This document shows, piece after piece, positions 33,335 to 38,911 of a DNA stretch of 64,000 bases. Source of the stretch: Thermoanaerobaculum sp. (GTDB lineage Bacteria; Acidobacteriota; Thermoanaerobaculia; Multivoradales; UBA5704); assembly GCA_021154885.1 (NCBI GenBank), contig JAJKHS010000136.1, forward strand, positions 62,001 to 126,000, read 5' to 3'. A program made the translations under genes and the position numbers. The number at the start of each line of letters is the position of its first letter. Position 1 is the first letter of the stretch. The notes beneath the pieces were generated by a model. It ran no database searches and had not been told where the DNA came from. It saw only the letters and a program-made list of their open reading frames with translations.

Positions 33335-33535
33335 CCCTCATCACCCCGGCCCTCTTCTCCCGCCCCCTCCCAACCCCCCTCACCGGGAGAAGAGGGAGAA
33401 AGGCAAGAACCCTTCAACCGGGTCCCCCTCTCCCGGTGAGGGGGGGTGGGAGGGGGCGGGAGAGGGGACAGGGGTGAGGGCCCTCGGGCGGGGGCGCTCT
33501 GAGGATAAGGGAGAAGAGGGCCGGGGTGATGAGGG
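33335..33535. repeat. Compound palindrome of C-rich/G-rich arms, reaching into the next gene
   Basis: The outer arm 33335-33361 is the exact 27-base reverse complement of 33509-33535. Inside it, a 30-base arm near 33360-33390 (CGCCCCCTCCCAACCCCCCT...) is matched at 29 of 30 positions by the inverted segment near 33429-33460. The whole block is about 200 bases. Its right arm lies inside the first 21 codons of the glycosyltransferase-like gene that starts at 33474, so the repeat supplies that protein's N terminus or hides its start. It is probably a dispersed non-coding element. Confidence 0.75.
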
Positions 33536-35084
33536 CCTCCTCGCCCTCGCCGTCCTCCTCCTCGTCGCCGGCTGCCTCCTCCAGATCTTCGCCGGCTACT
33601 CCCATCCCGACCTTTCTGGCCATGCCTGGGGGAGCGACGACGCGTACATCTCCTATCGCTACGCCCAGCATCTCGCCTCGGGCCAGGGGCTGGTCTTCAA
33701 CCCCGGCGAACGGGTCGAGGGCTTTTCAAACCTCCTCTACGTGCTGCTCCTGGCGCCGGCCGCGGCGCTCGTCCCCCCGGCGCGGCTCTACGCCGTCTCC
33801 GCCGGTCTCAACCTCCTCTTCGCGGCCGCGGCCCTGGTCCTCCTGTATCGCTTCACCCGGCGCCGCCTTGGAAGCTTCGCGGCGGCGATCGTGGCCGGTC
33901 TTTTCGCCCTCGGCCCCTCGGTCTGGGTGGCGGTCGCCTCGGGCCTCGAAACGCCCATGGTCCTCCTGCTCCAGATTGGCACCTGGATCCTGGTCGAGCA
34001 GGCGGTGGAGGAGGGAGGGGCCCGCGAAAGGAGGGCGGTCGCGGGCCTGTGCCTCGTGGCGGCGGTCTTGGTCCTCGCCCGGGTGGACGGCTTCATCGCG
34101 CCGATGCTGGCCGCCGCCTTCCTCACCCTGCGGGGCCGCTGGCGCTCCGCCTTCGCCGTAGCGGGCTCGGCCCTCGCCACCTTCGGCGCACTGACCCTGT
34201 GGCGCCTGGCCTACTACGGCTGGCCGCTGCCCAACACCTATTACGCCAAGATGACGAGCACCCTGGGAATGCGCCTGGAGGCTGGCGGCGAGCAGCTCCT
34301 GACCATCCTTCTCGGCACCGGGCTCGTCATCGCCCTGGCGGGGTTCGTCATCGCCGGGGTGCGGAGCTGGAAGGTGCTGCCTTTCCCGGTGCTCTTTGCC
34401 GCCGGCTCGCTGGGCTACTACCTCTACATCGGCGGCGATCTCTTTTACGACCGCTTCGTCGTCGTCCTCTTCCCGATGGGCGCCTGGCTGCTCCTGGCCC
34501 TGGCCCTGCAGTCCGGCAGCCGGCGCGCCGTGGCGGCCCTCGCCGTGCTGCTGGCCGCCGCCCAACTCGTGCCCTTGGGAACGGACCCGCGTTTCCACTA
34601 CCGGCTCCACAAGTACGACCGCTGGGTGACCCTGGGCCAATTCCTGGGCCGCGAGCAGCGGGGCGCCGTGCTGGCCGTCGACGGAGCGGGAAAGGTGCCC
34701 TACTTCTCGAACCTCCGGACGATCGACATGCTGGGCCTGGCGGACGTCCACATCGCCCACCGTCAGGCGGACGCCCGGGGTTATTTCTGGGCCGGCCACG
34801 CCAAGTCCGACCTGCCCTACGTCCTCTCCCGCCGGCCGGACCTGATCGCCACCTGGCTCGGCAACCGCTTCGCCCTGCGCCAGGGTCCGGTGGCGGAGCC
34901 CGAGGTCCTGGCCAGCGCCGGCTATCGCCTGCTCTACCTGACCAACATCGATCCGGAATCGAAGGGCCGCGACGTCCTGGACGTCCGCCGCACGAGCAGC
35001 GATGAAATTCGGCGGCTGTTTGGGAATGGGTACCGGTACGGGGTGTTCGAGCGGGTCCGGGTCAACGAGGCCGGGCCACGGTGA
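33474..35084 (+). CDS. Polytopic membrane protein, GT-C glycosyltransferase-like
   Basis: The protein has 536 residues with about ten or more membrane helices. The first extracytoplasmic loop carries WGSDDAYISYRYAQHLASGQ and GLVFNPGERVEGFSNLLYVL, the acidic motif and following segment found in GT-C-fold (GT39/ArnT-like) lipid-sugar-dependent transferases. The soluble C-terminal part contains TIDMLGLADVHIA. A GTG at 33474 is the only reasonable start before the first helix, but its first 21 codons are repeat DNA (RALGRGRSEDKGEEGRGDEG), so the native N terminus may begin later at a rare codon. It probably glycosylates a lipid or protein at the outer face of the inner membrane. It overlaps vapC by 23 bases, convergent. 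Confidence 0.8.
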   Translation: MRALGRGRSEDKGEEGRGDEGLLALAVLLLVAGCLLQIFAGYSHPDLSGHAWGSDDAYISYRYAQHLASGQGLVFNPGERVEGFSNLLYVLLLAPAAALVPPARLYAVSAGLNLLFAAAALVLLYRFTRRRLGSFAAAIVAGLFALGPSVWVAVASGLETPMVLLLQIGTWILVEQAVEEGGARERRAVAGLCLVAAVLVLARVDGFIAPMLAAAFLTLRGRWRSAFAVAGSALATFGALTLWRLAYYGWPLPNTYYAKMTSTLGMRLEAGGEQLLTILLGTGLVIALAGFVIAGVRSWKVLPFPVLFAAGSLGYYLYIGGDLFYDRFVVVLFPMGAWLLLALALQSGSRRAVAALAVLLAAAQLVPLGTDPRFHYRLHKYDRWVTLGQFLGREQRGAVLAVDGAGKVPYFSNLRTIDMLGLADVHIAHRQADARGYFWAGHAKSDLPYVLSRRPDLIATWLGNRFALRQGPVAEPEVLASAGYRLLYLTNIDPESKGRDVLDVRRTSSDEIRRLFGNGYRYGVFERVRVNEAGPR

Positions 35085-35463
35085 GCCCCAGGTGCCTCTC
35101 GAACGGCTCGTAGCCGGCTGACGAGTGGAGCAGCGCGAAGCCCTGATCGAGACAGAAGGTGGCGAGGCGGCACTCGGCGGTGCGCACGGGGATGCCCCGG
35201 GCGCGCAGGGTGTGGTAGTGCACCGCGGCCTTTTCGGCGAGATCGAATCCCGTCAGCTCGACCAGCCAGAACCTGGCGAGCGCCTCCCGGGCCTGCTTGC
35301 GATGCAGCTCGTCCGGCAGCCCGTGCAGCACCTCGGTCAACACCATGTCGGCCACCACCAGCGGGGAGCGGCCGAGGAGCGAGTCCAGATGATCCGCCTC
35401 CGGCGTGGCCGCGCCCGTGAAGTAGTCGATCCAGACGGACGAGTCAACGAGGACCTGCACCAC
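35062..35463 (-). CDS. vapC: VapC-type PIN-domain toxin ribonuclease
   Basis: The protein has 133 residues and is a PIN domain: MVQVLVDSSVWIDYFTG with the first catalytic Asp, the Glu in VLTEVLHGLPDE, and the C-terminal RTAECRLATFCLDQGFALLH. The usual second Asp (often as TxxDxLIAA) is replaced by the TAECRLATFC stretch, where Glu may serve, so activity is worth checking. The antitoxin gene overlaps its start by 20 bases. VapC toxins cleave tRNA or rRNA when the antitoxin is degraded. Confidence 0.9.
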   Translation of the reverse strand: MVQVLVDSSVWIDYFTGAATPEADHLDSLLGRSPLVVADMVLTEVLHGLPDELHRKQAREALARFWLVELTGFDLAEKAAVHYHTLRARGIPVRTAECRLATFCLDQGFALLHSSAGYEPFERHLGLTVARPR

Positions 35464-35668
35464 GCTCCCCCCGGATCTCGTCCAGATCCCCCTGCCACAC
35501 CAGCTTGCCGCGGAGAGAGCGCACCCCGGCCTGCTCGTGGAGCCGGACGTACATCTTCAGCGCCTCCTCGATCAAGCCCTTCTTCGTCCTGATGCCGGAA
35601 AGCGCCCACGCCTTCATGAACAGCCCTTCGTCGATCTCCAAGCTCGTGAACAAGATCCCTCCTCGCAT
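35444..35668 (-). CDS. vapB: VapB-type antitoxin
   Basis: The protein has about 74 residues, with a short beta strand and two helices (SLEIDEGLFMKAWALSGIRT, then KKGLIEEALKMYVRLHEQAG) in the ribbon-helix-helix VapB pattern. The tail SLRGKLVWQGDLDEIRG is the part that normally wraps VapC. The start is unclear: ATG 35668 gives MRGGILF, but AGGAGG lies just before a TTG at 35653 that gives (M)FTSLEIDEG, closer to the family. It is translated before vapC and overlaps it. About 40-340 bases upstream lies a phased CATATG array that could be its operator. Confidence 0.85.
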   Translation of the reverse strand: MRGGILFTSLEIDEGLFMKAWALSGIRTKKGLIEEALKMYVRLHEQAGVRSLRGKLVWQGDLDEIRGERGAGPR

Positions 35669-35704: not shown

Positions 35705-36004
35705 TATATGACTTCCGTCCGAAAGCATATGCCACGAGGGAACAAAAGGCATCCAGGACCTCCAAAGTATATGAACTCTCAGCACAGGTATATGAATCAG
35801 CCTCCTTGAGATGCCGATGAGCCCGCCCGTCCAGCCCTTTTGGGGCGCCCCTCAGCTTCCCAGCGCCCTCTTCATATGAAGAGCCCATCGCTCCATATAC
35901 CAAGGGGCTCCATTCATATGAAATTATGGCGTTCTCATATGGGGTGAGGCTCGGCGTCCGGTCTGTGGGCACGGTTTCATATAGAGACAGAAATATTTCA
36001 TATG
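35705..36004. promoter_or_regulatory. Array of ten CATATG/TATATG sites in 21-bp register upstream of vapBC
   Basis: In this GC-rich genome the gap 35669-36149 contains ten 6-base sites of the form (C/T)ATAT(G/A), starting at 35705, 35726, 35768, 35789, 35873, 35894, 35915, 35936, 35979 and 35999. The intervals are 21, 42, 21, 84, 21, 21, 21, 43 and 20. Sites at 35873 and 35915 are full TTCATATGAA palindromes. Left sites read TATATGA; right sites read TCATAT. Twenty-one base pairs is two turns of DNA, so bound proteins would line up on one face. The array lies at the 5' side of vapB (minus strand) and may be a cooperative operator. The DNA between the sites is not conserved, so it is not a CRISPR or a simple tandem repeat. 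Confidence 0.6.
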
Positions 36005-36016
36005 CTTTGGACCCGA

Positions 36017-36127
36017 AAGGACATCAGGGACGACAAGGACCTCAAAGACACGAAGGACAATGCCAGGTCCGGTATTTTATTGTCCCTGCTGTCCTTACAG
36101 TCCTTGATGTCCTTGATGTCCTTGGTC
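36017..36127. repeat. Palindromic element of 9-bp AAGGACATC-like units, copy A
   Basis: The left half is a run of 9-base units (AAGGACATC, AGGGACGAC, AAGGACCTC, AAAGACACG, AAGGACAAT). The right half holds the inverted units (TGTCCCTGC, TGTCCTTAC, AGTCCTTGA, TGTCCTTGA, TGTCCTTGG), so the whole can fold on itself. Its reverse complement matches copy B at 51865-51979 closely, including the centre GGACAATAAAAT. It lies 23 bases from the stop of the DinB-like gene. Together with the CATATG array it fills the 480-base gap before vapB; no gene is visible there. Confidence 0.75.
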
Positions 36128-36149: not shown

Positions 36150-36641
36150 CTAGCTCTCGTCCGCCGACGGCCCGTACAGACCCGGCAGGGGGATGTCGTT
36201 GAGCCGCAGGTAGATGGTGAGCTGGCCGCGGTGGTGGATGATGTGGTTGATGACGAAGGCGCGCAGGACGGCGATCTTGGGCATGGAGAAGATCGTCTGC
36301 TCTCCGTTGCGCAGGGTCCACGGCTCAAAGAAGGTCTCGTCGCTCACGCCGGCGAGGGCCGTGCGGGCGTCGGCAACGCTCTTGTCGAAGACCGCCAGGA
36401 TCTCTTCGGTCGAGCTCGGCTTGGGCTGCTCGAAGGGTTGGCTGAGATCAAGCTCGGAGGTTTGGATCGTCATGGAGGTCCAGTTGGGCAGGGTGGCCAG
36501 ATGGGTGGCCAGCTTCTGGAAAGGCCAGGACTTCGCGTGCGGCTGCCACGAAAGCTTGTCGTTCGGAACCCGCTCGAGGACGCGGCGGGTGTTGGCCATC
36601 TCCTGGTCGAACTCGGGAAGTAACATAGCGCTGATGCTCAT
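36150..36641 (-). CDS. DinB-family four-helix-bundle protein
   Basis: The protein has 163 residues. It starts MSISAMLLPEFDQEMANTRR with AGAGAGGTGAGAGC upstream. Family pattern: LERVPNDKLSWQPHAKSWPF, LATHLATLPNW supplying one metal-binding His, and FVINHIIHHRGQLTIYLR with the HxxxHHRGQ metal site. DinB-like proteins bind a divalent metal and often act as thiol-dependent transferases or hydrolases; the substrate is unknown. In the 75-base gap upstream two direct repeats AATGTCA (36689-36695, 36705-36711) may mark its promoter or operator. Confidence 0.92.
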   Translation of the reverse strand: MSISAMLLPEFDQEMANTRRVLERVPNDKLSWQPHAKSWPFQKLATHLATLPNWTSMTIQTSELDLSQPFEQPKPSSTEEILAVFDKSVADARTALAGVSDETFFEPWTLRNGEQTIFSMPKIAVLRAFVINHIIHHRGQLTIYLRLNDIPLPGLYGPSADES

Positions 36642-38119: not shown

Positions 38120-38911
38120 TCAGAGGCCGCGCTCCGCGAGCGCGGCCCGCAGACGAGCAACCTCGGCCTCCGCCGCCTCGGCGCGCTGGCGTTCGGCCTC
38201 GGCGCGCTGGTGCTCAGTCTCGGCGCGCTGGTGTTCCGCCTCGGCGCGCTGGCGCTCTACCTCGGCGCGCTCCTCGGGCGTGGGCACCAGGCTGCCATCG
38301 GGACGGAAGAGCCGGACCCATTCCCCCGTCCTTCCTTCCAAGGCTCCGTACCAGAGGCCGAAGGACACTCCGAGCTGCTCGCTCCAGAGCCGTCCCTGCT
38401 CATCCGGCGGGATCGGCCGGTAGAACCGGTCCGCCAAGCGCAAACCTTCCAGCTCCCACGTCTCCGGGTCGCACAGGAAGTACTCCGCGGTACGGAAGAC
38501 CCGGGCGTAGAGGTCTCTCTTTTCCGTGCGGTCCTTCTTCGCCGTGGAAGGGGAGAGCAGCTCGACGATGACGTCCGGCAACCGCCCGCCCTCCTCCCAG
38601 GCGATCCAGACCTTACGCTCGCGGTCCGGATCGACGCCGCCCACCCAGAAGACGTCCGGTCCGCGGAAGGCCCGCCACGGCAGGCCCTTCGTCATCTCCT
38701 CCGAGACCTCCCGTGCCTGCTCCACGGAGAAGTAGACGAACATGTTGCCGCCGGTGTAGAAGTCGGTGCGGCCGGCTTCCGTCATGACCTCGCGGAACAG
38801 CCTCCGCAGGATGGGGTACTGCAAAGTATGCCACTCGGTCTCCAAGGGCTCTCCGTCGTCGTAGACGAGCTCGAAGGGCAGAGGCGCGAGCGCGATGGCT
38901 GGCTGGCTCAT
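38120..38911 (-). CDS. Uma2-family PD-(D/E)XK endonuclease with C-terminal coiled coil
   Basis: The protein has 263 residues. The N-terminal 200 residues are a Uma2/DUF820 domain, a restriction-like fold: VFWVGGVDPDRERKVWIAWE, LPDVIVELLSPSTAKKDRTE with Asp, Glu and Lys in place, then KRDLYARVFRTAEYFLCDPE. The C-terminal 50 residues are a heptad coiled coil made from a 21-base DNA repeat (AEVERQRAEAEHQRAETEHQ onwards). Uma2 families are much expanded in cyanobacteria, Acidobacteria and Planctomycetes; their role is unknown. The coiled coil probably sets oligomer state. Confidence 0.92.
   Translation of the reverse strand: MSQPAIALAPLPFELVYDDGEPLETEWHTLQYPILRRLFREVMTEAGRTDFYTGGNMFVYFSVEQAREVSEEMTKGLPWRAFRGPDVFWVGGVDPDRERKVWIAWEEGGRLPDVIVELLSPSTAKKDRTEKRDLYARVFRTAEYFLCDPETWELEGLRLADRFYRPIPPDEQGRLWSEQLGVSFGLWYGALEGRTGEWVRLFRPDGSLVPTPEERAEVERQRAEAEHQRAETEHQRAEAERQRAEAAEAEVARLRAALAERGL
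38177..38280. repeat. 21-bp tandem repeat within the Uma2 gene
   Basis: Units begin CTCGGCGCGCTGG at 38177, 38198, 38219, 38240 and a last partial one at 38261 (CTCGGCGCGCTCC). Each 21-base unit encodes one 7-residue coiled-coil heptad of the type QRAEAEH on the minus strand. Copy number is likely to vary between strains by slippage. Confidence 0.85.

Follow-up and report, generated by a model that had tools for sequence, protein, structure and literature searches.

Operators of toxin-antitoxin systems are generally small, consisting of one or two palindromes (PMC5924515). The CcdAB system of the F plasmid is a long exception: its ribbon-helix-helix (RHH) antitoxin CcdA uses a 6-bp palindrome as a nucleation site from which CcdA–CcdB complexes spiral along ~120 bp (PMC3920265). 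Repression that is bridged by the toxin and relieved when toxin levels are high goes by the name of conditional cooperativity. Among VapBC systems, VapBC11 of M. tuberculosis forms a VapB4C4 hetero-octamer in which ~60 Å separate the two RHH domains, much as in DNA-bound FitAB; the authors of the structure propose that it spans a pair of operator repeats (PMC6265470). Neisseria FitAB is likewise a VapBC-type hetero-octamer that contacts DNA via two RHH domains (PMC3384007), and CopG and ParD arrange several RHH dimers next to one another along extended operators (PMC8251345).

How does the present locus compare? We analysed a stretch of 64 kb (hereafter, the window) from an 8.2-Mb draft genome, in which ten phased hexamers precede a vapBC gene pair. 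The locus resembles M. tuberculosis VapBC11 and VapBC15 in its VapB family (RHH-type, PF09957), its PIN toxin, the overlapping gene order and the position of the sites directly upstream of vapB, and the two-turn spacing of paired sites is common to the window array and PF09957 homologues. It differs from these VapBC systems in that FTS stands for RTN in the VapB β-strand, YATATR takes the place of TACACA, and ten sites extend across 300 bp where two are usual and three homologues have three. An operator of one to three sites is customary but does not define the group, and ten sites—or 12 and 13, as in the arrays L017 and L015 described below—mark a variant rather than a non-member. With CcdAB, the locus shares a predicted RHH antitoxin and short palindromic sites, and an extended nucleoprotein complex and a toxin bridge are proposed for the window by comparison; yet here each occupied slot of a longer array has a hexamer of its own in an exact 21-bp spacing, and the toxin belongs to the PIN proteins, whereas CcdB is a gyrase poison. 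The FitAB operator is one inverted repeat, in contrast to the lattice of the window. On the CopG and ParD operators, unlike in the arrangement proposed for the window, adjacent dimers touch without a two-turn gap, and CopG has no toxin bridge. In the mostly open-access literature searched, neither such arrays nor a toxin-antitoxin operator with ten sites turned up.

Gene content of the locus

The gene pair (Table 1) is predicted to constitute a VapBC type II toxin-antitoxin module with an RHH-type VapB of the PF09957 family, for which toxicity, neutralisation and autorepression would be expected. The PF09957 antitoxin gene starts with a TTG at 35653, behind GAGGAGG, and directly precedes the PIN toxin gene, with which it overlaps at 35444-35463. 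VapB yields a profile match to VapB11 (6a7v, E 8e-13), VapC is related to VapC15 (E 2e-11) and VapC11, and the nearest relatives of known structure for the pair are VapB11/VapC11 (6a7v) and VapB15/VapC15 (4chg). An AF2 model of the VapB monomer (mean pLDDT 72) places two helices after a strand-like N-terminal segment; this β-strand reads FTSLEID as compared to RTNIEID in the family. On its far side, the array is bordered by a DinB-family gene whose 3′ end faces it, and the array is thus upstream of vapB only.

Two further repeats were seen in the window. A GGAC-type element adjoins the array (36016-36096, continuing to ~36130) and is dispersed, with 25 matches in the genome. At 38178-38267, an ordinary 21-bp coding repeat specifies RAEAEHQ heptads in a 263-aa protein (38120-38911).

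Table 1. Genes and lattice positions at the vapBC locus of the window, with the slots of the congener G002 that are in register.
Feature	Product or sequence	Position	Strand	Remark	G002
vapC	PIN-domain putative toxin, 133 aa	35062..35463	-	PF01850 PIN, E 1.1e-5, over curated cut-off	
vapB	RHH-type antitoxin, 69 aa	35444..35653	-	PF09957, E 8.9e-9, over curated cut-off	
Site k0	TATATG	35705..35710		~50 bp upstream of vapB start	CCTATG
Site k1	CATATG	35726..35731			CATATA
Slot k2	empty	35747..35752			empty
Site k3	TATATG	35768..35773			CCTATG
Site k4	TATATG	35789..35794			CATATG
Slots k5-k7	empty (three)	35810..35872		mid-array	
Site k8	CATATG	35873..35878		inside TCTTCATATGAAGA	
Site k9	CATATA	35894..35899			
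Site k10	CATATG	35915..35920		inside ATTCATATGAAAT	
Site k11	CATATG	35936..35941			
Slot k12	empty	35957			
Site k13	CATATA	35978..35983			
Site k14	CATATG	35999..36004		last of array	
DinB-family gene		36150-36641	-	3′ end faces array	

An exact 21-bp lattice

Ten YATATR hexamers lie at 35705-36004, and every one falls on a single exact 21-bp lattice, i.e. shares the same phase modulo 21. Successive starts are 21, 42, 21, 84, 21, 21, 21, 42 and 21 bp apart. A first-pass annotation of this DNA had correctly recognised the ten-site array upstream of vapBC and its excess over known vapBC operators, but it gave the last two intervals as 43 and 20 and placed the last two sites within one base of the lattice; these were miscounts. 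The whole window holds 13 YATATR hexamers, three of them outside the array, and the pair YATATR-N15-YATATR occurs nine times in the 8.2-Mb genome: six times in the array, twice at trmFO (contig C126) and once at dnaB (C136:171519). None of 200,000 random placements of ten sites over the same span brought all ten into phase at any period from 18 to 24. In sequence simulated with the same local dinucleotide composition, YATATR had a density of 0.44 per 500 bp and never more than three sites were co-phased in 20,000 trials, and the spacing thereby stands up to the comparison with same-composition sequence that the annotation had proposed. When the ten array units are stacked, significant conservation is confined to the ATAT columns and extends to no linker column. 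The pattern therefore consists of sites and spacing, with the DNA between them free, as had been claimed.

A promoter scan detected no sigma-70 consensus promoter in the array region. Judged by its repeats, the array is unlike a CRISPR array: 6-bp sites with 15-bp linkers are set against CRISPR repeats of at least 20 bp and spacers of similar length. We also rejected, as having a negligible chance of being correct, the idea that the array is a coding heptad repeat (21 bp being seven codons) or an RNA structure: one minus-strand frame is indeed open across the whole array, but it crosses vapB out of frame, the matching frames of G002 are either interrupted by stops or devoid of a conserved pattern, and the folding z-score is -0.72.

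Conservation in a congener

The nearest relative with the same locus is a congeneric genome, 'Acidobacteria bacterium gp7 AA5' (QHVW01000488; G002). It shares the upstream membrane-protein-like gene (window 33474-35084), vapC (76% identity between the two VapC proteins), vapB and ~110 bp of vapB-upstream DNA. Within the latter, the lattice and its vacancy persist whereas the linkers have diverged: slots are in register, and 18/24 positions are identical within sites as compared to 37/81 in linkers and elsewhere, in a small sample that spans the four vapB-proximal sites up to the contig end and includes two CCTATG variants. Between the first site and the vapB start, the two genomes differ by 23 bp in length, and this distance is thus unequal modulo 21. 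That four sites and an empty slot hold their phase in a close relative supports the proposed selection on sites and helical phase.

The annotation had suggested a wider search of genomes. Among ~400 Acidobacteriota genomes a YATATR triple lattice was confined to G000; G088 contributed tandem repeats, and what matched in G320 and G171 was isolated or of low complexity. In G088, L028 and L032 hold two near-identical 21-bp CATATG-containing tandem arrays, one of which precedes a sigma-factor-like gene.

Operators of the VapB family

What do the operators of related VapBs look like? For VapC we drew on homologues in other phyla, and for VapB on those in Acidobacteriota. Across phyla, PF09957 VapB homologues carry two half-site copies just upstream of vapB, arranged either as inverted ATGTGTA/TACACAT, 23 bp from start to start (22 bp between hexamers; 28 loci), or as direct TACACAT at 21 bp (12 loci), with other arrangements being rare. 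Spacing between the centres of the TACACA/TGTGTA hexamers is therefore 21 bp (direct) or 22 bp (inverted), and the 21-bp multiples of the window array agree with this geometry. Leaving aside the expanded loci described below, two half-sites are the maximum except in L128, L137 and L138, which have three.

The predicted operator hexamer follows residues 2–4 of the VapB β-strand. At least two TACAC/GTGTA motifs within 110 bp accompany RTN-type VapBs in 60/70 loci, but RTT-type VapBs in 0/12, eight of which carry TGCA-type sites; the FTS-type VapBs of the window and G002 have no TACAC/GTGTA and carry YATATR/CNTATG instead. In the VapB alignment, R2 and N4 are nearly invariant, the exceptions being these two FTS proteins (F2, S4). 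Because just two FTS-type VapBs were found, the pairing of FTS with YATATR rests on one lineage. RHH proteins read DNA via their β-strand (PMC8251345), and direct recognition predicts that hexamer and strand change together. YATATR and TACACA have a pyrimidine–purine alternation in common, position by position.

Sister arrays at other vapB genes

Arrays of CATATG/YATATR were absent beside the other PF09957 genes of the source genome, which at first spoke against VapB, until the homologues' own hexamer was searched. Scanning 125 vapB upstream entries for co-phased hexamers (the window locus being counted twice, as L016 and L172) returned three expanded loci, all in the source genome: the window, L017 and L015. 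L017 (contig C139) has 12 TACAC/GTGTA sites in ~340 bp, in both orientations and 12/12 on one 21-bp lattice. With an internal TAG stop in its vapB and no vapC visible after that gene, this locus (L017:1480-1700) looks like a decayed module with a perfect 12-site operator lattice left over. L015 (contig C1) has 13 TACAC/GTGTA sites at steps near 21 bp or multiples thereof, off by a few bases (within two); they stand ahead of a VapB gene that is intact (MRINVEVDE) and has a PIN-like frame after it. Linkers of the L015 and L017 arrays are unrelated. The background density of TACAC/GTGTA is 0.19 per 400 bp; of the periods from 17 to 25, lattices of this motif appear at 21 alone, and five control motifs never formed any.

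These sister arrays are built from the family's own operator hexamer, which was found independently in other phyla, and they provide the strongest evidence that the arrays would be VapB operators. Our preferred reading, to which we assign a probability of about 0.78, is that the window array is an autoregulatory vapBC operator, grown roughly five-fold to ten sites where the family usually has two. Points that speak against it are the confinement of expanded loci to the source genome, the single lineage of FTS-type VapBs, the unequal distance to the vapB start in G002 and the negative promoter scan. The operator link drawn in the annotation has accordingly gained the β-strand-dependent two-site operators of the homologues at 21/22 bp and two loci expanded alike, while binding itself stays a prediction.

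The annotation had also considered a centromere-like or nucleoid-protein loading site, for which no positive support emerged. Partition sites and iterons do resemble directly repeated phased sites. Yet the predicted genes next to the array include none recognisable as serving partition or replication, the contig is chromosomal-looking, with housekeeping genes and dnaB 74 kb off, and two further vapB loci are built alike; a centromere-like, iteron-like or phage/plasmid maintenance site is hence hardly conceivable.

Other two-turn arrays in the genome

The source genome abounds in other two-turn arrays, which is why our confidence in a vapBC operator stops short of certainty; the annotation, confined to the window, could not see them. 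In 1.59 Mb sampled by regions, period 21 is strongly over-represented: we counted 19 clusters of at least four co-phased hexamers at this period as compared to 0–7 at other periods, and it accounted for 27 intergenic bins, period 20 for 12. Units vary by locus (TCGCGA, GCTGCC, TGGCCC, and, at 20 bp, GGTCCC and GATATG), and most of these arrays adjoin genes unrelated to toxin-antitoxin systems, several lying between convergent genes. Intergenic examples with a period of 21 bp, or 20 bp in some, include L051:11147-11630, L101:2304-2800, L109:4891-5185, L126:16309-16600, L082:9047-9275 and L120:13278-13560. The main rival explanation builds on this abundance: the window array might belong to the general class of 20/21-bp intergenic arrays, arisen by tandem-repeat expansion and perhaps bound by a nucleoid or global protein, and stand beside vapBC by accident. 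VapB-like hexamers in arrays unlinked to vapB (CATATG at trmFO and dnaB, TACACA on contigs C97 and C82) point in the same direction. However, most other arrays have conserved linkers, with 4–19 conserved unit columns (up to 19/21 significant) as compared to the four ATAT columns of the window, which has no conserved repeat unit beyond that core. Moreover, the trmFO array is absent from the orthologous place in G001-G003, and so lineage-specific, and the dnaB array from that in G003, whereas the vapBC array is kept in G002. Nor does accident explain why the L015 and L017 arrays carry exactly the family half-site. We therefore regard this rival as possible but unlikely.

The trmFO array (L105:8767-8960, C126, upstream of the gene) combines TCGCGA with CATATG/CATAGG slots at 21 bp, and its ends are inverted repeats (CGAGTTTCCTATGAAAATTCGC). 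In L285:1438-1620 (C97) and L072:15738-15930 (C82), TACACA/TGTGTA sit in the variable slot of arrays that have a 21-bp period and conserved linkers; the latter array lies upstream of a small CxxC protein that, by eye, resembles YgiT/MqsA antitoxins. Searching the source genome for TRYRYA triples returned C97 only, unlinked to a PF09957 gene, and a control pattern had more matches (6 vs 2). On C1, CRISPR-like repeats (TTTCAATCCACG) recur at multiples of 22 bp, ~66 bp apart (L111:17576-17977, L112:293-694).

Could another cellular regulator govern vapBC, or the nearby dinB, through this array? The 21-bp CATATG/CATAGG lattices that trmFO and dnaB also possess would fit such a protein. Against it, the orientation of dinB leaves the array upstream of vapB only, the site type tracks the local VapB β-strand across loci, and the other PF09957 loci are without YATATR arrays, all of which renders this alternative very improbable. 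Returning to the vapBC operator, a process making two-turn arrays seems active in the source genome and may have supplied the raw material for the vapB arrays.

Proposed mechanism and significance

How might an operator of ten sites work? Each YATATR hexamer is a predicted site for one VapB RHH dimer, and the two-turn spacing would put successive dimers on the same DNA face, a geometry that matches the family's two-site operator. Neighbouring VapB dimers would then probably be bridged by VapC dimers that bound VapB carries. The bridging suggested for VapBC11, along with a two-turn lattice that lets such units tile, leads us to propose a cooperative one-faced lattice, wherein the repressor would coat the promoter and ~300 bp upstream and repression would be steep, set by the VapB:VapC ratio. 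As to why there are ten sites, our guess is that they make the response steeper and buffer the complex.

A farther-reaching scenario, speculative and rather unlikely, is that several VapBs of this lineage evolved long phased operators on which a one-faced VapBC filament titrates and counts the complex, with the hexamers in the dnaB, trmFO, C97 and C82 arrays serving as trans targets. If true, this would make VapBC a multi-locus, nucleoid-like regulator.

If they are vapBC operators, these natural arrays, with ten to thirteen phased sites and random linkers, would provide a clean test system for toxin-bridged cooperativity, in which site number, helical phase and toxin:antitoxin ratio are separable variables. 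For this large antitoxin family, the pairing of RTN with TACACA, RTT with TGCA and FTS with YATATR would offer a readable code of DNA recognition.
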